27,880 nucleotides of DNA, taken from the IMG/VR virus record IMGVR_UViG_3300031952_000108, positions 1 through 27,880 of that record; one strand, written 5' to 3'. Below are positions 220 to 24,860 of the stretch, one piece after another. The DNA comes from a virus. The translations under genes and the position numbers were made by a program. Under the pieces are notes generated by a model. That model was not told the DNA's origin and did not search any database. It saw only the letters and a program-made list of their open reading frames with translations. The number at the start of each line of letters is the position of its first letter. The first letter of the stretch is position 1.

Positions 220-1200
220 ATGCTAGAAACCGTACCAAGCGCACAGTCGTTCCCGCCGCCGAAAGGTTGCCGGGAGGCGACGTCCCCGCTGGGAATCGAA
301 GTCCTCAGACTCCATTACAGCGCAGACCCAGCCAAGGGGCCGGAATGGGCGGCTATCGCCAAGCCACATGCGCCGAGTGTCGCCAACTGGAACCAAGAAC
401 AAGAGATTGACTTCGGGGCCTTCCTGGGAACCCGCCTATTCCCTGAGTTCCAGCGCGAACTCACGGTCATAACCCCCTTCCCTGTCCCGCCTTCCTGGAC
501 ACGGTACATGGCAATTGATCCCCATCCCAGAAGGCCCCACGCGTTTCTGTGGGTGGCGGTGTCACCTGGGGATGACCATGTTTATTACCGGTCTTATTGG
601 CCCTCGAAGATTTACGGCAAGCCGGGAGACGTGCCGGAAGACGACGACCTGTACCACATCGACGACTACGTGGCCACCATCAAGATGGTCGAGTCGAAAC
701 AGTGCGACGTCTTCGGTCCCGGAGGCTTTGCTGACAACGGCGGCAAGGACGAGGTGATTTCGCGGCGGATTATGGACCCCTACGGGAAGGCCATAGCCTC
801 AGAACGCAAGTGGGGGAAAGAGGGCGCAGAGACTTTTTGGGACAGGTACGCGCAACTCGGAATCCATTGCGAACCAGCGAAGCGCGATTTCCAGGCTGGT
901 CGGGATGCGGTAGGTCGGCGGCTGCGGCCCAGGAAGGTGATCGATGAGACTGGCGAGCGCATCCAGAGCCAGATACTGGTGTTCGAGACCCTGCCGGAAC
1001 TGATTTTCGAATTGGAGAACAACCGATTCCCAGTGCTGACGCCGGAACAAGCCGCACGGCGCGATCCTGCGGATGTACCGCTCCCGAAGCGGAAGTGCCT
1101 TACCGACCTCATGCGCTACATCGAAATTACCGACCCGGCCTTCGTCGAGCATGTGGAGCCGACGTTGCTGCCGAGACTGGCCGAAGGGGTGAGTTACTAA
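220..1200 (+). CDS. terL: Terminase large subunit, nuclease part
   Basis: This 326-residue product matches the C-terminal RNase H-like nuclease half of TerL. The beta-1 strand with the first metal-binding Asp is at residues 97-101 (MAIDP, Asp100), and the last acidic motif is LTDLMRY with Asp296, equivalent to the usual hD-xLRY pattern. The stretch LHYSADPAKGPEW followed by WNQEQEIDFGAFLG is the usual linker joining ATPase and nuclease in terminases. It cuts the genome during initiation and headful termination. It is in the same frame as the ATPase fragment but separated by TAG and TGA, so it starts either at ATG 220 or at an unseen upstream site. No good ribosome-binding site precedes 220. 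The first 20 or so residues look unlike terminase and may be translated junction sequence. Confidence 0.85.
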   Translation: MLETVPSAQSFPPPKGCREATSPLGIEVLRLHYSADPAKGPEWAAIAKPHAPSVANWNQEQEIDFGAFLGTRLFPEFQRELTVITPFPVPPSWTRYMAIDPHPRRPHAFLWVAVSPGDDHVYYRSYWPSKIYGKPGDVPEDDDLYHIDDYVATIKMVESKQCDVFGPGGFADNGGKDEVISRRIMDPYGKAIASERKWGKEGAETFWDRYAQLGIHCEPAKRDFQAGRDAVGRRLRPRKVIDETGERIQSQILVFETLPELIFELENNRFPVLTPEQAARRDPADVPLPKRKCLTDLMRYIEITDPAFVEHVEPTLLPRLAEGVSY

Positions 1201-1362
1201 GAATGCGGGCGACCTTTGTCGCGGTGAATACGTTGGTGAGAGTCCAACACCCTTGCGCCGTGAGGCGTCAGGGTTGCCGGAGCAAGGACGGACACCGAAG
1301 CCAGACCAAGCCAGCGGACGCGGTTGGCGGATCGCCCGCAGAAATTGAAGGGGTGAGCTACT
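1183..1362 (+). repeat. 16-bp direct repeat flanking a 164-bp unit
   Basis: GAAGGGGTGAGTTACT at 1183-1198 recurs with one mismatch as GAAGGGGTGAGCTACT at 1347-1362. The first copy encodes the last residues of the terminase (EGVSY, then stop). The second encodes the same five residues and a stop in the frame just before the ATG of the next gene. Each copy holds a GGGGTGA ribosome-binding sequence a few bases before an ATG (1203 and 1364). The simplest reading is that the original terminase/next-gene junction was duplicated when the 164-bp unit between the copies was gained. Confidence 0.7.
1204..1340 (+). ncRNA. Candidate structured RNA element between terL and the next gene
   Basis: A perfect 9-bp inverted repeat closes the element (TGCGGGCGA 1204-1212 with TCGCCCGCA 1332-1340). 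Nested inside are GTTGG-TGAGAGT-CCAAC (1232-1248), a long hairpin ACCCT-tg-CGCC-GTGA-GGCG-tc-AGGGT with a GNRA loop (1249-1274), and a CCAAGCC/GGTTGG stem further on. The GGTGAGAGTCC loop resembles, from memory, the coordination-loop hairpin of domain I in group II introns, but no domain V, 5' GUGYG end or reverse transcriptase is visible. A competing hairpin GCGAC-CTTT-GTCGC (1209-1222) would disrupt the outer stem. The same span can be read as a 53-aa ORF from ATG 1203 with a plausible ribosome-binding site, which is the main alternative. Fold was judged by eye only. Confidence 0.4.
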
Positions 1363-1363
1363 G

Positions 1364-1681
1364 ATGGCAAACGGAGTCAACGGCCTGAGACTGACCGTCA
1401 TTGTCGGGGTTTTGGGAATCGTAGTCGGGATTGGCGGTAAGGGCGTAGCGGACAGGTTATCAATGGAAAGGGGCGCAACGTCTGCGGCTGTCGAAATCAG
1501 CACAATCAAGACGCAGATCGGTGAACTGAAACATGCTGACGAGGTTCTGAGTGAAAGTGCGGTATCAGTCCGCGAGTTCTCACAGTTCACCGGAGCCACG
1601 GACAAGCGCCTAGAGGAAATTCTGGACCAAGTGAAGTCCCTGCGGGCGGAGTTTATGCAGGCAAACAGGAGGGGGAAATGA
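1364..1681 (+). CDS. Small membrane protein with coiled-coil tail
   Basis: The 105-residue product has one hydrophobic segment (about residues 9-30, LRLTVIVGVLGIVVGIGG) and then a hydrophilic, heptad-like helical region rich in Glu, Lys and Ser to the end. Size and layout resemble phage holin or spanin-like accessory proteins, but no diagnostic motif is present and no endolysin gene was recognised nearby. GGGGTGA is 7 nt upstream and the ATG overlaps the preceding stop frame by one base (TGATG). The stop overlaps the next ATG (ATGA), so it is probably co-translated with the exported protein that follows. Function unknown; an anchor or lysis role is inference only. Confidence 0.7.
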   Translation: MANGVNGLRLTVIVGVLGIVVGIGGKGVADRLSMERGATSAAVEISTIKTQIGELKHADEVLSESAVSVREFSQFTGATDKRLEEILDQVKSLRAEFMQANRRGK

Positions 1682-3139: not shown

Positions 3140-3409
3140 ATGATGCGACGTTGGGTAGCCATCGTTCTGATAGGTCTGGTTCTTACGCCTGGGGTGTTCG
3201 CGCAGAAGGCAGAAGCGCCAGCGCCGGTCGTCAAGGTCGAGGAATTACAGAAGCATCTAGGCGAACTGGAGAACACAAGGGAACAGGCCTTGGCGAACCT
3301 CCACGCGATAGATGGGGCGATTCAGGAGTGCAAATACTGGATCAAGAGGGCGCAAGCGGGGCCGGGGAAGCCGGAAGTCAAGCGCACTGAACCGGCACCA
3401 GCACAGTAG
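3140..3409 (+). CDS. Small exported coiled-coil protein
   Basis: Residues 1-22 form a signal peptide with a clear AxA|Q site (MMRRWVAIVLIGLVLTPGVFA|Q). A predicted helix of about 40 residues follows with regular Leu/Ile spacing (EELQKHLGELENTREQALAN), and the tail is Pro/Ala/Lys-rich. Length is 89 residues. GGAGCGAGGA lies directly upstream of the ATG. It could be a periplasmic spanin-like or fibre-chaperone protein; the small size, export signal and coiled coil allow either. No known family is recognised. It lies between the exported fibre-like protein and the portal gene. Confidence 0.7.
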   Translation: MMRRWVAIVLIGLVLTPGVFAQKAEAPAPVVKVEELQKHLGELENTREQALANLHAIDGAIQECKYWIKRAQAGPGKPEVKRTEPAPAQ

Positions 3410-3419
3410 CGGAGAATTC

Positions 3420-5582
3420 ATGTCCCAAGCGGGTTTGGACTCTCGGGTCAGTGACACCATCGAACGCCGGAAAGCCTCGCGTGATTGGACGCGGGACAAC
3501 TTCTGGGGCGAGTTCGAGGAAGTCTGGCGGTACATGAAGTGCCGCACCGTGCCCATCACCGACCCCAAGACGGGGAAGGAAGACACGACTCGCACCAACA
3601 TCTGTATGCCCGATTTCTGGAGTGTCGTCCGGCGGAAGACGGCGAAACTCACGGCGCGACCTCCGACCCTGCGGATTCACGCGAAGAGTCCGCAAGTCGC
3701 CGAGTGGTGGACTGGGTTCGCGGCGTATCAGTGGGATCGCGCGCATGAGCAAGTCGTCCAGCGGCGCCATGTTCTCCAGGCACAACTGTTTGGTCTGTCC
3801 GTCAAGGCGCATTGGTATGACACCGTGATCGAGAATCGCCGGTTTCGTAGGAAGACCGAAGACGTACTGGCCGAAATCGGCGTCGTCATGGACGATGAGA
3901 CTGGGAAGTTGCAACTCCCGAGCGTGGACGAAATCCAGACGAAAAGGACTCGGCCATACAAGGACTTCCCTCCGCAGCAGACACAGGAACTTATGGCCTC
4001 CGTAGGCCCTGAGATGTTCCGGCGCGAGGCGATCCGCAAGTACGAGGGTCCGGTATCCTCATTCGTATTCCTGGGGGACTTCTATCCAGAGCCAGAGTTC
4101 GAAAGTCTGCACAGTGCGGCCTGGATAATCCTGGAAGCGATGCGCGATGTGGAATGGCTGGCCTACTTTGCCAAGCAAAAGTATTCCGATCCCCGCGACC
4201 CCCAGGCCCCAGAGCGACCGATATTCGACACCAAGCGCTTGCAGGAACTCCTCGATGGCGTTTCGTACTCTACCACTTCGGCTGCTAAGGACGAGGATCT
4301 GAAGGCCCAACTGCGGTCGGCAATCTTCAAGACCGAACCGTTGGTGGACGTGAAACTCCTCCCGGTCAAACGGTTCAAGATTACCAGCGAGTACGTCTTC
4401 AAAGACGGCTGGCCGCACGTGCGTTGGATCGGGAACGACAAGCACCTCCTGAACTACACGGAGAGTGACAAGGACGACGGGTACATGCCGTTGCCGTGGG
4501 ACCTCAACGGTCGCTACAACCTCTCGTCATTCACACCGATTCCAGACCTTTTGTGGGGTGTGGGGGATTCCTCGCCACGCATCCTGCGGCATCTTATGCG
4601 TTTGCACAATGTTACTGTAGCGCAACGTACCGATTTAGTTACTGCGGCCTTGATGCCGCTCGTGCCCATCCGTGAGGGTGCGGACATCCCGGAGCAGATT
4701 CAGAACCGGGGGTGTATGCGGGTCTTTCGCGTAAAAACGCCGGGCGACATTGGTACACCCATAACAGTTCAAGTTCCGCGTGAGGCTTGGGAGTCGGAAA
4801 AAGCCATCCTTATGCAGATGCAGAACGCTGAACCCTCCCTCAATTCCTTCGGCGTGGAAAGTCAGGCGGTTCCAGGAGCCTCTCAGGTGGCGACACTCGG
4901 GATGCTCCAACAAAGAGCTGGTGAGGCACTGTCGGCTGACGAACTTGAGCGCCTGAACGAATCTCTGGCTGAGGAAACGACCATCAAGTTGCTCATGGCG
5001 CAGCAGGGCCTTTCGGAAATCCCCAAGATTCCGAAGCAGTTCATGCCAGCGCCGGAAGCCGAGGCGGACAGTTCAATGATGACGCTGGCAAGCGGTGCCC
5101 CAGGGGAACGTGCGGCAGTGACGATAAAGGATCCGCTCGAACTCCAGGAAGACTTGGAGGTCATCCCGGAATTGGGAAGCACCTTGGCCCTGGACGACGA
5201 ATTCAAGAGGTCGAGTGCTGAGAAGTTGTACTTGGTGGCAAGTGCCGACCCCATCCTGTGGAACAAGCGCGAGGCCGCACAGCAGTTGGCCAGCACGTTC
5301 CGGGCGAGGGACGCTGAAAAGCTGCTCAATCCTGAGATGCCGCCAAGCCCGCGAGTGCCTGAGACTCGGGTAAGCATTTCGCTGGCCCTGAAGTGGGACG
5401 ACTTGCCGGGAGAGGTACAGAACGAAATCCTACAAAAAACCGGCCTCAGCCCCAGCGCAGACCTCGACGCTCGGGACGCCTTAAAGAGCGTGGAAAGACT
5501 GAATCAGGCAGCAAAGGCGGCTCAGGAATTGACCGAACCGGCGGTGACTCCCTCCGATGGGGAACAGGTAAAGAGGACGTGA
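3420..5582 (+). CDS. Portal protein
   Basis: The 720-residue size, position downstream of the terminase and sequence style match the large podovirus-like portal family. The N-terminal part has a basic helical wing (RRKASRDWTRDNFWGEFEEVW) and a conserved patch TRTNICMPDFWSVVRRKTAKL. A mixed alpha/beta clip and stem follow, then a long helical crown rich in Glu/Leu/Gln near the C terminus (residues about 480-700). The dodecameric ring forms the DNA gate at one capsid vertex and docks the terminase and the adaptor. ATG 3420, with GGAGA a few bases upstream, is preferred; an in-frame extension to 3312 would overlap the previous gene and is unlikely. The adjacent small gene follows with a one-base gap. 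Confidence 0.85.
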   Translation: MSQAGLDSRVSDTIERRKASRDWTRDNFWGEFEEVWRYMKCRTVPITDPKTGKEDTTRTNICMPDFWSVVRRKTAKLTARPPTLRIHAKSPQVAEWWTGFAAYQWDRAHEQVVQRRHVLQAQLFGLSVKAHWYDTVIENRRFRRKTEDVLAEIGVVMDDETGKLQLPSVDEIQTKRTRPYKDFPPQQTQELMASVGPEMFRREAIRKYEGPVSSFVFLGDFYPEPEFESLHSAAWIILEAMRDVEWLAYFAKQKYSDPRDPQAPERPIFDTKRLQELLDGVSYSTTSAAKDEDLKAQLRSAIFKTEPLVDVKLLPVKRFKITSEYVFKDGWPHVRWIGNDKHLLNYTESDKDDGYMPLPWDLNGRYNLSSFTPIPDLLWGVGDSSPRILRHLMRLHNVTVAQRTDLVTAALMPLVPIREGADIPEQIQNRGCMRVFRVKTPGDIGTPITVQVPREAWESEKAILMQMQNAEPSLNSFGVESQAVPGASQVATLGMLQQRAGEALSADELERLNESLAEETTIKLLMAQQGLSEIPKIPKQFMPAPEAEADSSMMTLASGAPGERAAVTIKDPLELQEDLEVIPELGSTLALDDEFKRSSAEKLYLVASADPILWNKREAAQQLASTFRARDAEKLLNPEMPPSPRVPETRVSISLALKWDDLPGEVQNEILQKTGLSPSADLDARDALKSVERLNQAAKAAQELTEPAVTPSDGEQVKRT

Positions 5583-5583
5583 G

Positions 5584-5934
5584 ATGCCAAGATTCCGCAA
5601 AAAGCCGATTGTAATTGAGGCGGTGCAACTAACGTGGGGGAACTGGTCTGAGATGTGCGAACACGCGGGAGTCGGGAAGCTTTCGGACGGCAAGCCAGAA
5701 GGGTGTTATCTCGGACCGGACGGCCATCCGCGCAAGGGACACGAAGTTACCGACAAGATGGGCCTTGCGATTCCGACTTTGGAGGGGGTGATGATTGCCT
5801 CAGAGGATGACTGGGTAATCAGGGGGGTGAAGGGTGAACTCTACCCCTGCAAGTCAGACATCTTTGCGGCAACTTACGAACCCGAGGTTGCGCTGCCTGC
5901 CTCCGAAGCGAAGGGAGGACAGGGTGCTGGTTAA
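5584..5934 (+). CDS. Conserved small phage protein (FRKKPIVIEA family)
   Basis: The start, MPRFRKKPIVIEAVQLTWGN, and the end, DDWVIRGVKGELYPCKSDIF, are the signature of a widespread small phage protein. It usually begins with a KFRKKPVxIEA motif and ends in an iGDWIIkGvkGEfYPCkpDiF motif. Known relatives are 80-130 residues long; this one has 116. Their biochemical role is not established. The ATG follows the portal stop by one base and has GAGGA upstream. The 3' end overlaps the next start (GTG 5924) by 11 nt, so the two are likely co-translated. Family recognition is strong; no function can be assigned. Confidence 0.8.
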   Translation: MPRFRKKPIVIEAVQLTWGNWSEMCEHAGVGKLSDGKPEGCYLGPDGHPRKGHEVTDKMGLAIPTLEGVMIASEDDWVIRGVKGELYPCKSDIFAATYEPEVALPASEAKGGQGAG

Positions 5935-8426: not shown

Positions 8427-8479
8427 TGGCTTGGATAAGGAATGTCATATGCCATACACCAACCGTGCGGATAGGTTAG
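8426..8479 (+). other. Vestigial start of the gene downstream of the HNH insertion
   Basis: The tailspike stop overlaps an ATG (TGATGG) that opens a 17-codon frame reading MAWIRNVI and so on, ending at TAG 8477-8479. The gene after the HNH endonuclease starts with the same TGATGGC sequence at 8892-8898 and reads MASIQNLVV. The two N termini share M, A, I and N and are conservative at three more positions. This looks like the original start of that downstream gene, left behind next to the tailspike when the HNH gene entered. The match is short, so this remains inference. Confidence 0.35.
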
Positions 8480-8922
8480 CGTGCCAGGCACGGTACTATG
8501 CTAGAAATTGTTCACGGCTAAGGGCGGCTGGACGTGCTTATCACGCCAAGCACCGCGAGTGCGGGATCCTGCGCCCGGAGGAACCCAACCACCCAACGTA
8601 CTGTCGCACTTCACGGCTCAGGATTAAACAGGAGGCCATCGCTGCTTACGGCGGCAAGTGTCAGTGTTGCGGTGAGACGCAGGGGGACTTCTTGACTATT
8701 GACCACATCAACGGGCGGCAGAAAGGTGAGTTTGGAAAGACGTACAAAGTCGGTGGCGAGGAACTGTACCGATGCCTGAAAAAACGCGGTTGGCCCAAGG
8801 ACGCCTTTCGCCTCCTCTGTATGAATTGCAATTTTGCTCTGGGTAAGTTTGGTCGGTGTCCACACACGCCCATCGTGGTCGGGGAGAACGGTGATGGCCT
8901 CTATACAAAATCTGGTGGTTAA
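8449..8922 (+). CDS. HNH homing-type endonuclease
   Basis: The product has 157 residues. A basic N-terminal region (residues 1-65) precedes an HNH core: CxxC at 71-74 (CQCC), the Asp85-His86 pair in LTIDHINGRQ, then CxxC at 124-127 with the trailing Asn128 (LLCMNCNFALG) and a C-terminal CPH. The four cysteines form the structural zinc site and His86 is the expected general base. The spacing and the phrase WPKDAFRLLCMNCN are characteristic of free-standing phage HNH homing endonucleases, which nick DNA and spread between related phages. AAGGA is 7 nt before ATG 8449. The gene lies between the tailspike and a small gene whose start it overlaps by 29 nt. Confidence 0.92.
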   Translation: MPYTNRADRLACQARYYARNCSRLRAAGRAYHAKHRECGILRPEEPNHPTYCRTSRLRIKQEAIAAYGGKCQCCGETQGDFLTIDHINGRQKGEFGKTYKVGGEELYRCLKKRGWPKDAFRLLCMNCNFALGKFGRCPHTPIVVGENGDGLYTKSGG

Positions 8923-9184
8923 CGATGTCGGCGACCCGGAAGCGATAGTTGCCGTGACCGTCTGCCGGAAGATTACTGTGGGTGAGGAACGGGGTGTTGC
9001 CAACTACCCGACGACGGACTTCAGGGTTCGCAAGGGGGCAATGAACACCGAGGGAACCGTACTCCTCGCCGGGTTGAGTTACACCTTCGAAAGCTCACCA
9101 GGAAGGTTTTTCCAACCAGGGGATGTCGTGGGATGGGTTGAGACCCTTTCGGGTGCTTCGGATTTCTTCCAGGATGAATCTTGA
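8894..9184 (+). CDS. Small hypothetical protein, beta-rich
   Basis: The product has 96 residues, beta-rich and without cysteine pairs apart from one Cys (VTVCRKITVGEE). The end, FFQPGDVVGWVETLSGASD, resembles small phage tail-associated or decoration proteins, but no family is recognised. ATG 8894 has GGGGAGA upstream; the same frame is open earlier inside the HNH gene but has no better start. The stop overlaps the next ATG (TGATG at 9182-9186). The start was probably re-formed when the HNH gene inserted upstream. Confidence 0.6.
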   Translation: MASIQNLVVNDVGDPEAIVAVTVCRKITVGEERGVANYPTTDFRVRKGAMNTEGTVLLAGLSYTFESSPGRFFQPGDVVGWVETLSGASDFFQDES

Positions 9185-10107
9185 TGAAAGTAACCCCTCA
9201 AGGTCTCCTGCGTCAGTGGTTGGAAAGCCAGGGATATCCGCGTCTGGCCCGGAGCAGGCCCGAAGTGGACGAGGTTGAGGTCGAAAAGCTGAAGAGGCGA
9301 GGACGCATTGCCCACCCGGACTATGACGACAAGGCGCTGACGGTCTGGGCGATTTACTCGGTGCTGACGCACAACGCGGCGGGTCGGGAGCGGAAATTGG
9401 CTCGTAGGCGTCTTTGGTTCTGGCGTCTCGTCCTGGCGGGGGCGGTTCTGGTTGTTGGACTTCTTGCCTGCGTTCACGCCTTCGGGCAGACACCACACGA
9501 TCCCTTACTCCTGGAAATCCGGGACGAGGGCACGCGGGTTAAAGTCTGGCCCGCTGGCGTGGCGCGGGTGAATTTCGTCGGCTCTAACGTGATGTGCGGT
9601 TGGAACCCCACCACGAAAGTGGTTGATTGCTCTGTCACGGGTGGAGGGACGGCGAACTGGTCAAACGAGGAAGGTCCGGCAGGGCAAATCAACGGCGTGA
9701 ATGTAACGTTCACGCTGGCTCATGCGCCTTCACCGGCGGCAAGCCTGCAACTGGTACTTAATGGCCAGGTGCTTCGGTCTGGCGCGGCGAATGATTTTAG
9801 CCTTTCGGGTTCTACCATCACCTTCAACTATCCGCCGCCAGCGGGAAGCAGTCTGCTTTGCTGGTATCAAACGGCTGGAACAAGTTGGTCGAACGAGGAA
9901 GGACCGACGGGGGAAATCAACGGGGCGAACACAACGTTCACCCTGGCCTATGCACCCTCACCCCCAGCCAGTCTGAGGCTGGTACTCAATGGCGTGACCC
10001 TGCGGTCGGGCGTGGCAAACGATTTCACTATTTCGGGGAATACCATCAGCTTTAACTATCCGCCGACGGCGGGTAGCGGGTTGATTGCGTGGTACGAATT
10101 CTTGTAG
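9184..10107 (+). CDS. Membrane-anchored fibre-like protein with two tandem ING repeats
   Basis: The product has 307 residues: a charged N-terminal region of about 77 residues (cytoplasmic if the protein is type II), one transmembrane segment (about 78-97, FWRLVLAGAVLVVGLLACV) and an external part. The external part has a Cys pair (C138, C149) and then two copies of a 73-residue module, residues 159-230 and 235-307. Each begins WSNEEGP and contains INGxNxTFTLAxAPSP, LVLNG, LRSG, NDF, TIxFNYPP and WY. The module resembles domains found in phage tail fibres and adhesins. A third, diverged copy ends the next protein. An attachment or fibre role is likely. The long N-terminal region before the membrane segment is unlike an ordinary signal peptide. 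Confidence 0.75.
   Translation: MKVTPQGLLRQWLESQGYPRLARSRPEVDEVEVEKLKRRGRIAHPDYDDKALTVWAIYSVLTHNAAGRERKLARRRLWFWRLVLAGAVLVVGLLACVHAFGQTPHDPLLLEIRDEGTRVKVWPAGVARVNFVGSNVMCGWNPTTKVVDCSVTGGGTANWSNEEGPAGQINGVNVTFTLAHAPSPAASLQLVLNGQVLRSGAANDFSLSGSTITFNYPPPAGSSLLCWYQTAGTSWSNEEGPTGEINGANTTFTLAYAPSPPASLRLVLNGVTLRSGVANDFTISGNTISFNYPPTAGSGLIAWYEFL
9658..10104 (+). repeat. Tandem in-gene repeat encoding the ING module
   Basis: Two in-frame units, 9658-9873 and 9886-10104, encode modules sharing roughly two thirds of their residues (WSNEEGP, TFTLA, APSP, LVLNG, NDF, FNYPP). They are separated by four residues. A third diverged unit is near 10586-10804 in the following gene. Intragenic repeats of this kind allow expansion and exchange between fibre genes. 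Confidence 0.75.
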
Positions 10108-18062: not shown

Positions 18063-19255
18063 TGAGCAAGAGAATCGCAGTTGTCTACCCTGCTGGCATA
18101 ATGAGTGCTTGGGATGTTGCGGACGGGATACCTCGCACTCTGAAGCGTATGGGATACGAAGTTCTCGACCTGCCCCGTGGTCGGTGGGGGCAACCTGCGG
18201 CGAGGGTGGCCGACCTGAACGAATGCGACCTAATTATCGTGAGCGGTGCGGAGCATGTCCTTGCGAAGGACCGCTTCGGGTTCTGGGATGAGGTAAGCCG
18301 AGAGGACTGGCTGACTAAGGTCAAGGCACCGAAAGCGGCTTGGTATCACGAATCGTTTACCCGCGAGGATGAGAACACGGACTTTGCTGCCCTGCGTCCG
18401 CTCCTGGACTTCCACTTCTTCCCGGCGGTTCAGGATGCGGAGACCTACTGCCAGCCGCACTTCGGAGTCCCCGACCGATGCCACTATCTGCCGTTCGGGG
18501 CGGACACAGAGATTTTCAAGCCGAACCTGTGCCCGCAGTGCCGCAACGGACCCCCGGCTTCGGACTGCATTACCTGCTTGGGCGTCGGAACCCTGCCGTC
18601 AGGCAAGGACATTGACATCGGCTTTATCGGGTCGCTCTATGGGCCGAGATTGACTTACCTGGACAGGTTGCGCCCACACCTGAAAGGCGTCTCGCTCCTG
18701 TGCGGCAACGTTGCGGTGCAGGACATCGAAGGCCCGTCGCCGGAGGAAACCGCGCTGAGGCTGGCGGCTAACTACCGGCGAATCAAGGTGTTTCTCAACC
18801 TGCCGTCCCTTAGCCAGCTTTTGGTGACGAAGGCAGTTGAGGTAATGGCCTGTGGAACCTTCTTGCTCCAGCCAGCGCTTGGGGCGGCGGCGGGCAAGAA
18901 CATGGAGCTTTTTGCCCATACGAGGCACCTCGTCTATTACCGGCACACGAATTTGGGCTTCCTCGCACAGATTCTGAGGGAGTTCATGGAGCGTGACCTG
19001 GATCGAGAGGTCATAGCCGCGGCGGGGTGCAAGGAAGTCAGGGAGAAACACTCGTTGCGCCTGCGATTGACGGAGATGCTGGGGAAATGTGGGTTCGGGG
19101 CACCGCCGGGGCCTGAGGAATGCCTTGGTATCACGAGACCAGGGGGGTCTGAGGCATCGGAAGGGGCTGGGACGCCCCGGAGTGCCAAAACCGAGTCTGG
19201 CCCGTCTGGCGAGGCAGCGGTGGCCTCCGAGGGGACGGAGTTGGAGAGGAAATGA
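18062..19255 (+). CDS. CgeB-like glycosyltransferase with zinc-knuckle insert
   Basis: The product has 397 residues and a GT-B style layout. The N-terminal Rossmann-like half (MSKRIAVVYPAGI, CDLIIVSGAEHV, AAWYHESF) is followed by a C-terminal sugar-nucleotide-binding half whose signature KAVEVMACGTFLLQ (257-270) is typical of the CgeB / Glycos_transf_1_2 family. Between the halves is CPQC (157-160) with CITC (169-172), a CxxC-CxxC zinc-binding pattern not expected in this family. The last 45 residues are low-complexity (Ser/Gly/Glu). It transfers a sugar from a nucleotide donor to an unknown acceptor. The ATG overlaps the previous stop (TAATG), and its stop overlaps the epimerase start (ATGA), so donor supply and transfer are probably coupled. 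Confidence 0.8.
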   Translation: MSKRIAVVYPAGIMSAWDVADGIPRTLKRMGYEVLDLPRGRWGQPAARVADLNECDLIIVSGAEHVLAKDRFGFWDEVSREDWLTKVKAPKAAWYHESFTREDENTDFAALRPLLDFHFFPAVQDAETYCQPHFGVPDRCHYLPFGADTEIFKPNLCPQCRNGPPASDCITCLGVGTLPSGKDIDIGFIGSLYGPRLTYLDRLRPHLKGVSLLCGNVAVQDIEGPSPEETALRLAANYRRIKVFLNLPSLSQLLVTKAVEVMACGTFLLQPALGAAAGKNMELFAHTRHLVYYRHTNLGFLAQILREFMERDLDREVIAAAGCKEVREKHSLRLRLTEMLGKCGFGAPPGPEECLGITRPGGSEASEGAGTPRSAKTESGPSGEAAVASEGTELERK

Positions 19256-20121
19256 AGACTGCGCTGGTCGTCGGAGCTGCCGGTTTCATAGGCCGACACC
19301 TGGTTCCGAAACTGGAGGCCGTGGGGTACGCTGTGAGCGGCATTGACCCGTGGCTCTTTACGTGCGCCGTGACGGCGACATTCGAGGAGTGGCTCGATTC
19401 TCGGCGGGCGTTTGAGCGATTGCATGGCATTGAGGTTCCCACCTTTGACTTGGTCGTCCACCTCGGCGCCAACATCCTTGATATCTCGCAGCGCATGGCA
19501 GGGGGACTCGATAAGTATGCCGACATCCGCCTGGACTACGCCGTCTGCCAGTACGTTGCAGACCATCCGCCGAGGGAAGCGTTCATTTACCCCAGTTCGT
19601 GTGCCACCGACAATCCCGAAGACCCCTACGCCTGGGTGAAGTTGACGGGTGAGCGGTTTTGCCAGGAACTTCACAAGGCGGGTGTCCCTACGGTCATATT
19701 GAGGCCCTTTTCTGGCTACGCTTCGGACCAAGCGGATTCCTACCCGTTCCCTGCCCTGCTGGGGCGTGCCATACGGCATGAGCATCCGCTGACGGTCTGG
19801 GGGTCACTGGAGACGGTTCGGGACTGGATACACATTGACGACCTAAGCGACGCCTTCGTTTGGGTGATTGAGAACGCGCCGCGAGGCATCCCCATCGACA
19901 TCGGAACGGGAATCGGCACCAATTTCCTGGAATTGGCTCTGATGATGGCTGCGGCGACTGGATACCGTCCGGCCGTTGTGGCCGACCGGACGAAGCCAAC
20001 ATCCTCACCACGTAGAGTTGCCGACACAACCCTGGCGAGGGCGCACGGATTCGAGGCCAAGATAACGCTGGCTGAGGGGATACGCCGTGCCGTCGAGGTG
20101 GCCCATGCGAAGACTCGTTGA
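19252..20121 (+). CDS. NAD-dependent sugar-nucleotide epimerase/dehydratase
   Basis: The 289-residue product is an extended short-chain dehydrogenase/reductase. The nucleotide-binding GAAGFIG motif is at residues 8-14, an acidic residue for the ribose (SGIDP) follows beta-2, LVVHLGA is the third strand motif, and the catalytic Ser (YPSSCA, 114-118) and Tyr126-x3-Lys130 (YAWVK) are intact. WIHIDDLSDAF is the typical distal motif of UDP/dTDP-sugar enzymes. It probably epimerises or dehydrates a nucleotide sugar for the adjacent glycosyltransferase. The substrate cannot be deduced. The start overlaps the upstream stop by 4 nt. The end carries the first copy of a 22-bp direct repeat that recurs at the methyltransferase start. 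Confidence 0.88.
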   Translation: MKTALVVGAAGFIGRHLVPKLEAVGYAVSGIDPWLFTCAVTATFEEWLDSRRAFERLHGIEVPTFDLVVHLGANILDISQRMAGGLDKYADIRLDYAVCQYVADHPPREAFIYPSSCATDNPEDPYAWVKLTGERFCQELHKAGVPTVILRPFSGYASDQADSYPFPALLGRAIRHEHPLTVWGSLETVRDWIHIDDLSDAFVWVIENAPRGIPIDIGTGIGTNFLELALMMAAATGYRPAVVADRTKPTSSPRRVADTTLARAHGFEAKITLAEGIRRAVEVAHAKTR

Positions 20122-20182
20122 AAGGACGCCAGGGGAGTACCTCCGGTCGCACGGGTGGAAACCCGTTCAGGGAACACGGTGA
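20105..20182 (+). CDS. 25-aa leader-like ORF, truncated copy of methyltransferase N terminus
   Basis: The frame starts ATG 20105 inside the end of the epimerase gene and reads MRRLVERTPGEYLRSH, closely matching the methyltransferase start at 20358 (VKRLVERTPPECFQLH). It ends at TGA 20180-20182. It is most likely a leftover of the original epimerase/methyltransferase junction, separated from its gene by insertion of the 62-aa gene that follows. It may be translated as a short coupled peptide. Confidence 0.4.
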   Translation: MRRLVERTPGEYLRSHGWKPVQGTR

Positions 20183-20384
20183 AATATGCGTGGAATGTAC
20201 CGGTTTACTCGCGTTACGGAACCGCCAGGCGGAGCTGCGACCTTTAGGGTTGCGTTCTGTGTCCGGTGTCAGGAAGCCCTCGTTACCGACCACTGGGCCG
20301 GAGAACACAGACTCACCTATACGGCCACATGCCGATGTCCGTGGCGGAGGAAGAAACGTGAAAAGACTCGTTGAAAGGACGCCA
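20110..20384 (+). repeat. 22-bp perfect direct repeat flanking the Cys-rich gene
   Basis: A perfect 22-bp sequence, starting AAGACTCGTTG and ending GACGCCA, is present at 20110-20131 and 20363-20384, 253 bp apart. Similarity continues imperfectly for about 20 bp more. In both places it ends the upstream gene with Lys-Thr-Arg-stop in one frame and begins RLVERTP in another, so the whole stop/start junction is duplicated. The 62-aa ORF lies between the copies. Confidence 0.85.
20186..20374 (+). CDS. 62-aa Cys-rich protein, possible zinc knuckle
   Basis: The product is small and basic with Cys-x2-Cys (FCVRCQEAL) and then Cys-x-Cys (TCRCPWRR) about 24 residues later; His in DHW and EHR could add ligands. 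It ends KREKTR, the last three residues coming from the direct repeat shared with the epimerase end. GGTGA is just upstream of ATG 20186. It lies inside a 253-bp unit bounded by repeats and overlaps the methyltransferase start by 17 nt. It could bind nucleic acid or scaffold the neighbouring enzymes; nothing establishes this. It could also be a chance ORF. Confidence 0.5.
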   Translation: MRGMYRFTRVTEPPGGAATFRVAFCVRCQEALVTDHWAGEHRLTYTATCRCPWRRKKREKTR

Positions 20385-22437: not shown

Positions 22438-23634
22438 ATGGCAGAAACGCCCGGAACCACCCCGAGCGACATTGAGCGGTCGATGGTTACGACGCTTATC
22501 CCCACGGAGACCCCCTCCGAGACGGGAAAGGCGGAAGGTTCTACCGAAGAAGTCGAACAAGTCACGGCGGCAGAGGGAACTCAAGAAATCGACGCAGGCC
22601 CCTCCCCAACCGAGGCCACCGAGACAGAAGCGACTCCGGGGGAGCCAGCAGCGAAGGGCAAAAAGACTCTCGGATACGACGAACTGCTGCCACTGGAACA
22701 GGGCGAGGAGTATCCCGATGAACTGTATGCCATCGCGGCGCGGAAGTGGAAGATCGACCCCAAACTTCTGGAAGACGAGTCCGTGCGCGGACTCATACGG
22801 GACAAGATCAATTCGGACATCGAAATCAAGCGGCAACGGTTGGAAGGGCAAGCGCGTGAAGAGCGAGAACCAGGGAAGACTGCCGAGGAACCACCCTCGA
22901 CTGAAACCCCCGGTCGCACGCTGACGCAAACCTTCGAGGAAGCCGGGTCGTTCGTCGAGCCGATGCTGACGAGCGATGGTGCAGCGATTTACGCTGCGAA
23001 GATGGGCGAAGCGTGGCAGCAGCACCAGGAGGCCGTCGAGTCTGGCGACCCGAAAGCCCTGGAAAAAGCGCAACGCAACGTCACCAAGGTCGAGATGCAA
23101 CTGTTGGCGATGGGCCTTCAGACCATGCTCCCGGCCATGATCCCGGGCCTGCTCGACAACTACGTTGCTGGACGGCAAGCGGAGGCAGACGAATCCACCC
23201 GAGTCTATAGCAAGGCCCGGGAACTCGTCGTGCAAGATCCGGCCTTCGCCGAGGTGAACGAACTCTACGACAAGGGCGAATTCCGCAAGTTGCTTGAGGA
23301 ACTCCCCGACCTCTTGGAGATGCGTTTCACCAAGGATGGGAAGCCGCTTCCACCGCTCGAAAATGCCGTGGCACAGTACAAGTACGCCGTCCGATTGATC
23401 CGTGGCAGAAACCGCCAATCCCCCGGAGACTCATTCCAGAAGGGCATCGAAGCCCGCAAAAAGCAAGAGGAAAAGGATCGGCAAATGGCGGGCGTGGGCA
23501 AGGGGTTGGGACAAGGCCGCACAGCGTCGGGAAAGTTCACCCCGGCAGGTCTGAGCGACGACGAGCACCAGCAGAAGGTGATCGACTCCTGGAACCGAGA
23601 ACATCCGTTCTCGGGTAGCGCGCCGCCGAAGTAG
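22438..23634 (+). CDS. Scaffolding protein
   Basis: The product has 398 residues and no cysteine. The first 70 residues are acidic and low-complexity (Glu, Thr, Pro), the middle is strongly helical with coiled-coil character (residues about 100-350), and the end is Lys/Gln-rich and basic (RKKQEEKDRQMAGVGKGLGQ), typical of scaffolds that grip the capsid shell by a basic tail. Its place immediately before the capsid gene supports the call. A peptidase motif is not seen, so it is probably a plain scaffold. ATG 22438 with GAGGAG upstream is chosen over TTG 22432. Confidence 0.8.
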   Translation: MAETPGTTPSDIERSMVTTLIPTETPSETGKAEGSTEEVEQVTAAEGTQEIDAGPSPTEATETEATPGEPAAKGKKTLGYDELLPLEQGEEYPDELYAIAARKWKIDPKLLEDESVRGLIRDKINSDIEIKRQRLEGQAREEREPGKTAEEPPSTETPGRTLTQTFEEAGSFVEPMLTSDGAAIYAAKMGEAWQQHQEAVESGDPKALEKAQRNVTKVEMQLLAMGLQTMLPAMIPGLLDNYVAGRQAEADESTRVYSKARELVVQDPAFAEVNELYDKGEFRKLLEELPDLLEMRFTKDGKPLPPLENAVAQYKYAVRLIRGRNRQSPGDSFQKGIEARKKQEEKDRQMAGVGKGLGQGRTASGKFTPAGLSDDEHQQKVIDSWNREHPFSGSAPPK

Positions 23635-23663: not shown

Positions 23664-24860
23664 ATGGCAAACGTAGTGGTTGCACGGTCCACCTACCAGG
23701 CCATCACAGGTGAGGGAATCCAGGTAAGGGAAATCGGAGACCGTATTGCCCTCCTGGACAGGGATGTAACCCCTCTTCTCGTGATGTCCATCAACGCCAA
23801 GCGCAAGAAACCCTCCAAGAGTCCCCGCATCGAGCAGATTGAAGACGATGTGCGTGGTCTGTGGGACTACCACGCCAGCAATGCGACCATCAGTTCGGTT
23901 GCCACGGGCATCCTGGTCAGTGACGGGACGCTGTTTGCCGTGGGCGACTTGGTGGCCGTCCAGAAAGCGAATTCCAGTTCCGCAGCCGAGGAAATCGTCC
24001 GCGTGACGGCAATCAGTTCCAACACTCTGACCGTTACCCGTAGCATCGGTGGTGCCGGGCAGGACAGCATCAATGTGACTCAGGCTCTGCGCATCATCGG
24101 TTCGGCATTCGCGGAAGGGGCGGCGCTGGGGTCTGTCCGTTCGACCACCAAGACCACCATCACCTCCTACACGCAGATCTTCCGGGAGCCAATCCAAATC
24201 ACGGGCACCATGCAGGCCACGGAAGTCTACGGCGAGCCTGATGAGGAATACCAGATTGCCAAGGCCCAGATCGAGCTGAAGAAGCAGATCGAGGCTGCGG
24301 GACTCTGGGGCAGGGCTTCGGAAAGTCTTGCGGCTCCTGCGAGCGTGCGCACCACGATGGGGTTCAAGTCGCGCGTCAGCACGAACGTCAACGACATGGC
24401 GACGACTGCCACCCTGACGAAGTGGAACACCGTGTCGGAGACTGCCTTCCGGTACAGCCAGCACCGCAAGTTGCTCATTGCTGCGCCGGCAGTCCATTCA
24501 GGGATCAACTACTTCGCGCAGAACGCCCTGAAGACTGAAGTGGAAAGCACCGTCTTTGGTGTCAACATCAAGCGGTTCATGTTGCCGCACGGCGAGTTGC
24601 TCCTGGCTCCGAACTGGCTGATGGAGGCGGGGGTTGCGTCACAGGCCGGGTACAACGATGAGTTCTACATCATTGACCTGGAAGCTGTGACTCTCTTCTA
24701 CCTCAACGGCAACGGCGTCAACCGTGACGTGGCGCTCTACAGGGACGTGGTCAAGGCTGGGGCGGACGCCACCACCCACGAAGTCCGGGGCGAACTCGCG
24801 TGGATCGTCGTGAACGAGAAGAAGCATAGCAGAGGTTTTAATTGCTCTGCTTATGCGTGA
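23664..24860 (+). CDS. Major capsid protein (DUF5309/SU10-like)
   Basis: The product has 398 residues, a usual length for the family. The sequence fits the HK97-fold DUF5309 / SU10-type group: an N-terminal arm (QVREIGDRIALLDRDVTPLL), YTQIFREPIQITGTMQA, then the spine-like helix (EEYQIAKAQIELKKQIEAAGLWGR) and RTTMGFKSRV, a conserved peptide in this group. A beta-rich insert at about residues 75-140 (TGILVSDGTLFAVGDLVAVQ) is the variable surface domain. GGAGA is upstream of ATG 23664. A strong hairpin terminator follows. It forms the icosahedral shell with the scaffold just before it. Confidence 0.88.
   Translation: MANVVVARSTYQAITGEGIQVREIGDRIALLDRDVTPLLVMSINAKRKKPSKSPRIEQIEDDVRGLWDYHASNATISSVATGILVSDGTLFAVGDLVAVQKANSSSAAEEIVRVTAISSNTLTVTRSIGGAGQDSINVTQALRIIGSAFAEGAALGSVRSTTKTTITSYTQIFREPIQITGTMQATEVYGEPDEEYQIAKAQIELKKQIEAAGLWGRASESLAAPASVRTTMGFKSRVSTNVNDMATTATLTKWNTVSETAFRYSQHRKLLIAAPAVHSGINYFAQNALKTEVESTVFGVNIKRFMLPHGELLLAPNWLMEAGVASQAGYNDEFYIIDLEAVTLFYLNGNGVNRDVALYRDVVKAGADATTHEVRGELAWIVVNEKKHSRGFNCSAYA

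Follow-up and report, generated by a model that had tools for sequence, protein, structure and literature searches.

A duplicated terminase stop/start junction around a 146-bp insert in a viral genome

The window analyzed here is a stretch of 27,880 nucleotides of viral DNA (IMGVR_UViG_3300031952_000108). The junction between the end of its terminase gene and the start of the next gene is present twice, with a 146-bp segment between the two copies. This arrangement raises the question of what the segment is, and of how it came to lie between the two genes. It could be a structured RNA, an ordinary small gene or a short cassette brought in by recombination at the gene boundary.

The duplicated terminase junction

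The frame at 220-1200 (plus strand) was assigned to the nuclease part of a terminase large subunit (TerL) by alignment and by tblastn, in which the best match to annotated large subunits had an E of 5e-7 and 25% identity. It ends with EGVSY followed by TAA. The terminase frame is broken between the ATPase and nuclease parts, by an in-frame TAG at 178-180 and an in-frame TGA at 202-204, both in an AT-richer stretch, and it resumes in the same frame at the ATG at 220. The relatives examined mostly have one long frame. In one distant terminase relative (L043, 2431-2450) we noticed by eye an in-frame TAA inside the apparent ATP-binding loop.

The left copy of the junction (1183-1200, plus strand) comprises the C-terminus of the terminase, the ribosome-site-like sequence GGGGTGA and the stop TAA. 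The right copy (1347-1364, plus strand) again contains EGVSY and GGGGTGA, and its stop TGA overlaps the ATG of the downstream gene (1364-1681, plus strand), which encodes 105 aa and has no family match above cut-off. The insert between the two copies occupies 1201-1346 on the same strand. The original prediction had described flanking repeats that match at 15 of 16 positions and each encode EGVSY-stop together with a GGGGTGA site. This was borne out, for the repeat at 1183-1198 and 1347-1362 as well as for the translation of both copies, and the further proposal of an insertion at a stop/start junction with duplication of that junction is supported. In its longer form the repeat comprises 1183-1200 and 1347-1364 (16/18, spacing 164). 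The two differences are silent with respect to EGVSY-stop (AGT/AGC and TAA/TGA), and the similarity stops at these 18 bp, as an anchored alignment found no extension on either side. When positions 1001-1500 of the window were shuffled, any pair matching at 15 of 16 was found in 1 of 1000 shuffles. The whole window contains four such pairs no more than 300 nt apart, whereas 40 shuffles averaged 0.1.

The junction was compared with 84 terminase loci, comprising the best 80 of at least 447 relatives (from 600 viral stretches) and four phage records. Seven loci were too short, which left 77, and these relatives are distant (about 22-45% identity). The terminase ends in -GY-stop in 74/77 loci, and the left copy is therefore the native gene end. 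A next frame of at least 80 aa begins within 30 nt of the terminase stop in 73/77 loci. The remaining four, read by eye, have small frames after the terminase and no exact repeats of 10 nt or more. No relative covering the TerL junction in an empty, one-copy form was found among those searched, and for this reason we infer the empty site.

Coding capacity and fold of the insert

The insert carries an open frame of 53 aa on the plus strand (coding part 1203-1361, stop 1362-1364). The start of this frame lies 2 nt beyond the terminase stop, and its end falls within the right junction copy. An ordinary small gene would account for this position and for the overlap with the next start; the repeat would then reflect ribosome sites and gene ends that match by coincidence. 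The base composition by codon position resembles that of the genes, and the small frames in four of the 77 distant relatives are found at the same place. However, 1390 out of 4000 shuffles also contained an open frame, and in 245 of them the codon-usage score of the 53-aa frame was matched. With a codon z of 1.40 this frame ranks at the 6.6th percentile among 61 real coding segments, which have a median of 2.58, and the range of the score was 1.40-1.90 (1.45 in a second run and 1.90 when the EGVSY codons were included). No protein homologue was found in the collections searched (best E in PDB 0.036), and the repeat is a rare outcome of local shuffling, as given above. We find it quite unlikely that an ordinary small gene next to a coincidental repeat explains the locus. 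Considered by itself, the cargo of the insert is perhaps a small gene or filler and less likely an RNA.

The insert had also been predicted to fold, with a perfect 9-bp closing stem around nested hairpins of which one has a GNRA loop. The closing stem was found as predicted, perfect over 9 bp, with its 5' arm at 1204-1212 and its 3' arm at 1332-1340 (plus strand). It sits 3 and 6 nt inside the insert ends defined by the repeat. Among 20000 shuffles, 7 had a perfect stem of 9 bp whose arms both began at most 12 nt from these ends. The hairpins exist as well. The one with the GTGA loop, which is of the GNRA type, lies at 1249-1274 (plus strand) and was given pair probabilities of 0.93-1.0 by folding, except for the outermost pair (0.66); a 26-nt stretch with a fold as good was found in 9 of 300 shuffles. 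Another hairpin, GTTGG-TGAGAGT-CCAAC at 1232-1248 (plus strand), has the form of the GGUGaAAGUCC hairpin of the Rfam family group-II-D1D4-4 and is present in approximately half of the ensemble (0.56). The sequence GCGGTGAATACGTT at 1221-1234 may resemble a conserved stretch of 16S rRNA.

These structures could belong to a mobile, non-autonomous structured RNA element with terminal inverted repeats that duplicated 18 bp of its target on insertion and is transcribed within the late transcript. The closing stem near both insert ends argues for such an element, and so does the fold of the insert alone (1201-1346), which has a z of -3.46, a value reached by 2 of 190 equal windows. In addition, swapping the frame's own codons while keeping the protein seldom gave an equal fold (10/500 on the plus strand and 4/500 on the minus strand), and the codon usage of the frame lies under that of most real genes. 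The fold score was, however, found to depend on the borders chosen, with z being about -1.7 once flank is included (-1.67 on the plus strand and -2.77 on the minus strand for the whole 180 nt, and -1.74 for 1203-1361). When synonymous codons were resampled from the genes, equal folds were obtained in 36/500 (plus) and 48/500 (minus) cases. An RNA element is further disfavored by the lack of an Rfam family above cut-off, by the single copy of the insert in the sources searched and by matches in bacterial genomes that stay at chance level (both detailed below), and by other duplicated junctions that have unstructured cargo. The case for the insert acting as an RNA is weak, and we hold a mobile RNA of this kind to be unlikely. 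A fuller version of this reading, a mobile RNA module with terminal inverted repeats that enters phage gene junctions with an 18-bp duplication that leaves the neighbors translatable and bears a group II-like coordination hairpin, appears distinctly improbable.

The likeness to the coordination loop in domain I of group II introns was upheld in one part. The remembered hairpin is present, as GG-UGAGAGU-CC fits the group-II-D1D4-4 consensus GGUGaAAGUCC (here GGUGAGAGUCC) except at one position, but membership in group II was not supported, with 9 bits against a cut-off of 49. Since the likeness is confined to one 11-nt hairpin with this score, it is a resemblance and not membership; the insert has in common with domain I one UGARAGU-loop hairpin closed by GG/CC and differs in everything else. 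The covariance search with Rfam that had been proposed for the insert gave no family above cut-off, group-II-D1D4-4 included. In the whole window no family reached its gathering score, domain V families among them, and a search at E 10 found nothing above cut-off in 1000-1500 or in 1196-1366. The matches at E 10 in 1196-1366 were v-snoRNA-1 (12.2 bits, cut-off 75) and group-II-D1D4-4 (9.0 bits, E 6.2), and no others; no domain V family matched this region at E 10. The cobalamin riboswitch and HEARO or OMEGA RNA were also considered as candidates and had no Rfam match at E 10. A relic of a group II intron, reduced to a piece of domain I, would explain the hairpin, but the low score, the absence from the window of any domain V family at gathering score and the size of 146 bp all speak against it. 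In addition, long target duplications are not known to be left by group II introns. We consider it extremely improbable.

Further copies of the insert were sought with the insert, the 53-aa frame, the terminase part, the 105-aa and 483-aa neighbors and the gene at 3312-5582 as queries. No homologue of the insert and no second copy was found with any of them, most of these searches reaching close relatives only, and no second copy was present in the window, in 93 additional loci or in the records G001-G003. When the insert was compared by BLAST with phages and plasmids, the matches were all short and weak; a Bradyrhizobium stretch sharing 25 nt with the insert looked unrelated by eye. An exact 23-mer of the insert had 0 matches in viral contigs, and the pattern GGTGAGAGTCC...GCCGGAGC had six, of which three are one sequence. 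One of these loci (L011) has at 4933-4971 a long intergenic GG-TGAGAGT-CC hairpin, located after a terminator-like stem and before a scaffold-like gene. This hairpin is probably due to chance, and the locus was rejected as a relative of the insert: it had no notable Rfam match, the insert model did not match it, and no relative among phages was found at E <1.

That model (R1) is a one-sequence model because it was built from the insert given twice. In 94 sources it matched the insert itself and one further site, at 23139, with 16.7 bits. In 398 bacterial genomes it gave four matches at E ≤0.1 per genome (best 0.0044), all of them gapped or partial alignments and no more than chance predicts, in a scan with strict filters that lose weak matches and with at most 7 candidates scored per genome. 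One Burkholderiales contig from the genome pattern scan was unlike the insert.

Other duplicated junctions in the lineage

Two other junctions of the lineage have the same architecture with other cargo. Where the epimerase gene (19252-20121) ends, 22 identical bases at 20110-20131 and 20363-20384 (plus strand) are located around a frame of 62 aa. The left copy lies over the epimerase stop (20119-20121), and the right copy at the start (GTG at 20358) of a methyltransferase-like gene. A 25-aa frame begun by the left copy (MRRLVERTPGEYLR..., 20105-20182, plus strand) resembles the N-terminus of the downstream gene by eye and is likely a remnant of it. The 62-aa frame (20186-20374, plus strand) ends with KREKTR-stop inside the right copy, compared to AKTR-stop for the epimerase in the left copy. 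The insert at this junction is unstructured (fold z -0.06). We also observed a CxxC-like FCVRC stretch in the 62-aa frame.

The epimerase-end duplication was also found in a second virus record, IMGVR_UViG_3300031772_000072 (G001), with an identical 62-aa frame. Six long segments of G001 match the window, at 88-99.7%; the record has no terminase match and ends inside the gene corresponding to 3312-5582. Between a 197-aa gene and the epimerase gene it carries a gene of 89 aa with a codon z of 3.44, and CCTCCGAGGGGACGG is found at both borders, i.e., at the end of the 197-aa gene and at the end of the 89-aa gene. In the window CCTCCGAGGGGACGG is present once, at the end of a glycosyltransferase gene and directly before the epimerase start (19190-19275, plus strand). 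The 89-aa gene is absent, and this is the empty site of the G001 junction. The difference could equally stem from a deletion in the lineage of the window or from an insertion in G001. The two records differ in further respects in this region, where the glycosyltransferase gene of the window has a tail resembling, at 77% over 119 bp, the one in the 197-aa gene. Three gene ends were seen to have the tail CCTCCGAGGGGACGG in common (window 19190-19275 and G001, L112). Because the cargo of these other junctions is likewise flanked, the 89-aa gene being clearly coding and the other insert unstructured, an RNA is not needed for a duplicated junction.

We also asked how unusual matching ends of neighboring genes are. 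A hand-made list of 31 gene stops gave a similarity of at least 12 in 2/30 adjacent pairs vs. 0/435 other pairs, in a test prompted by its own two top pairs, and of at least 9 in 3/30 vs. 5/435. An automatic list for the window gave 0/27 vs. 1/351 at a threshold of 12, as the list left out both small frames. For G001 the automatic list gave 1/52 adjacent pairs vs. 0/1326 others at a threshold of 14, 1/52 vs. 1/1326 at 12 and 2/52 vs. 6/1326 at 10. The gene-end signal obtained with automatic lists is thin, and the excess at lower thresholds is small.

Probable insertion at the gene boundary and related systems

On balance we judge it probable that the segment at the TerL end was inserted at the gene boundary by recombination. 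The duplicated junction is most likely a scar left when genes were shuffled in the ordinary way at short boundary sequences, and not a new kind of RNA. In the ancestor, the stop of the terminase gene would have overlapped the start of the next gene (TGATG), with nothing in between. Short boundary sequences may then have recombined, in a mixed infection or out of register, and brought in a short cassette, with a copy of the junction remaining on each side of it. The terminase would thereby have kept its C-terminus and stop, and the 53-aa frame of the cassette would have come to end in the same EGVSY-stop, overlapping the next ATG, so that ribosome access of the downstream gene would be kept. 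Such an insertion would be tolerable in a late operon because the end of one neighbor and the ribosome access of the other are preserved. Insertion at the gene boundary leaves the closing stem (7/20000 shuffles) and the fold of the insert unexplained.

A similar case is described for gene 68 of the mycobacteriophage Island3 (PMC3029335). This gene encodes an 85-residue product without homologues and is absent from Brujita. The last 18 residues of the product, with about 50 bp of DNA, are also found where the gene upstream ends, and the gene was attributed to recombination between short boundary sequences. Both gene 68 and the 53-aa frame are small orphan frames that share their terminal DNA and residues with the upstream gene; the repeat comprises 18 residues and about 50 bp in Island3 compared to 5 residues and 18 bp (16/18 nt) at the TerL junction. 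For Island3 a relative shows the empty site, whereas in the lineage of the window an empty site was found at the sister junction only (19190-19275). The insertion at the TerL junction is probably of the Island3 gene 68 kind, which is already published.

The same source describes the mycobacteriophage elements MPME1 and MPME2, which are 439 bp long, occur at several sites and add 6 bp at one end (PMC3029335). They resemble the insert in being very small phage insertions with inverted repeats at their ends; the insert differs in its 146 bp, in the one copy known and in its imperfect 18-bp junction repeat. No MPME-type phage relatives of the insert were found; the search gave nine phage-collection records, none of which covered more than 15% of the query, with an E of about 7. 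T4-type mobile regulatory cassettes carry promoters or stem-loops and use a short repeated intergenic sequence as the site of module exchange. At the TerL junction the repeat is instead the stop/start junction itself.

Insertions of this type show how orphan genes can enter tightly packed phage operons while leaving the neighbors unbroken. Because the junction itself is duplicated, the gene before it retains its end and the gene after it retains its ribosome site. That one lineage has three clear junctions with this form, among them one filled/empty pair, suggests that such insertions may be more frequent than the only published mycobacteriophage case would imply, and junction-duplicating insertions are open to systematic search.

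Two further genes of the window that are absent from G001 have weak duplications at their borders. One is a 116-aa gene at 5584-5934 (plus strand), with a 13 nt overlap. The other is an HNH endonuclease-like gene at 8449-8922 (plus strand; phrog_2255, E 2.2e-5), for which the border duplication is diverged (25 nt overlap) and which might itself be what drives its insertion there. A 228-bp internal repeat is found at 9655-10077, within the gene at 9181-10107. The window also encodes an SU10-type major capsid protein (23664-24857, Pfam E 3.7e-38), and glycosyltransferase, epimerase, methyltransferase-like and PAPS reductase-like genes are located upstream of the capsid gene.
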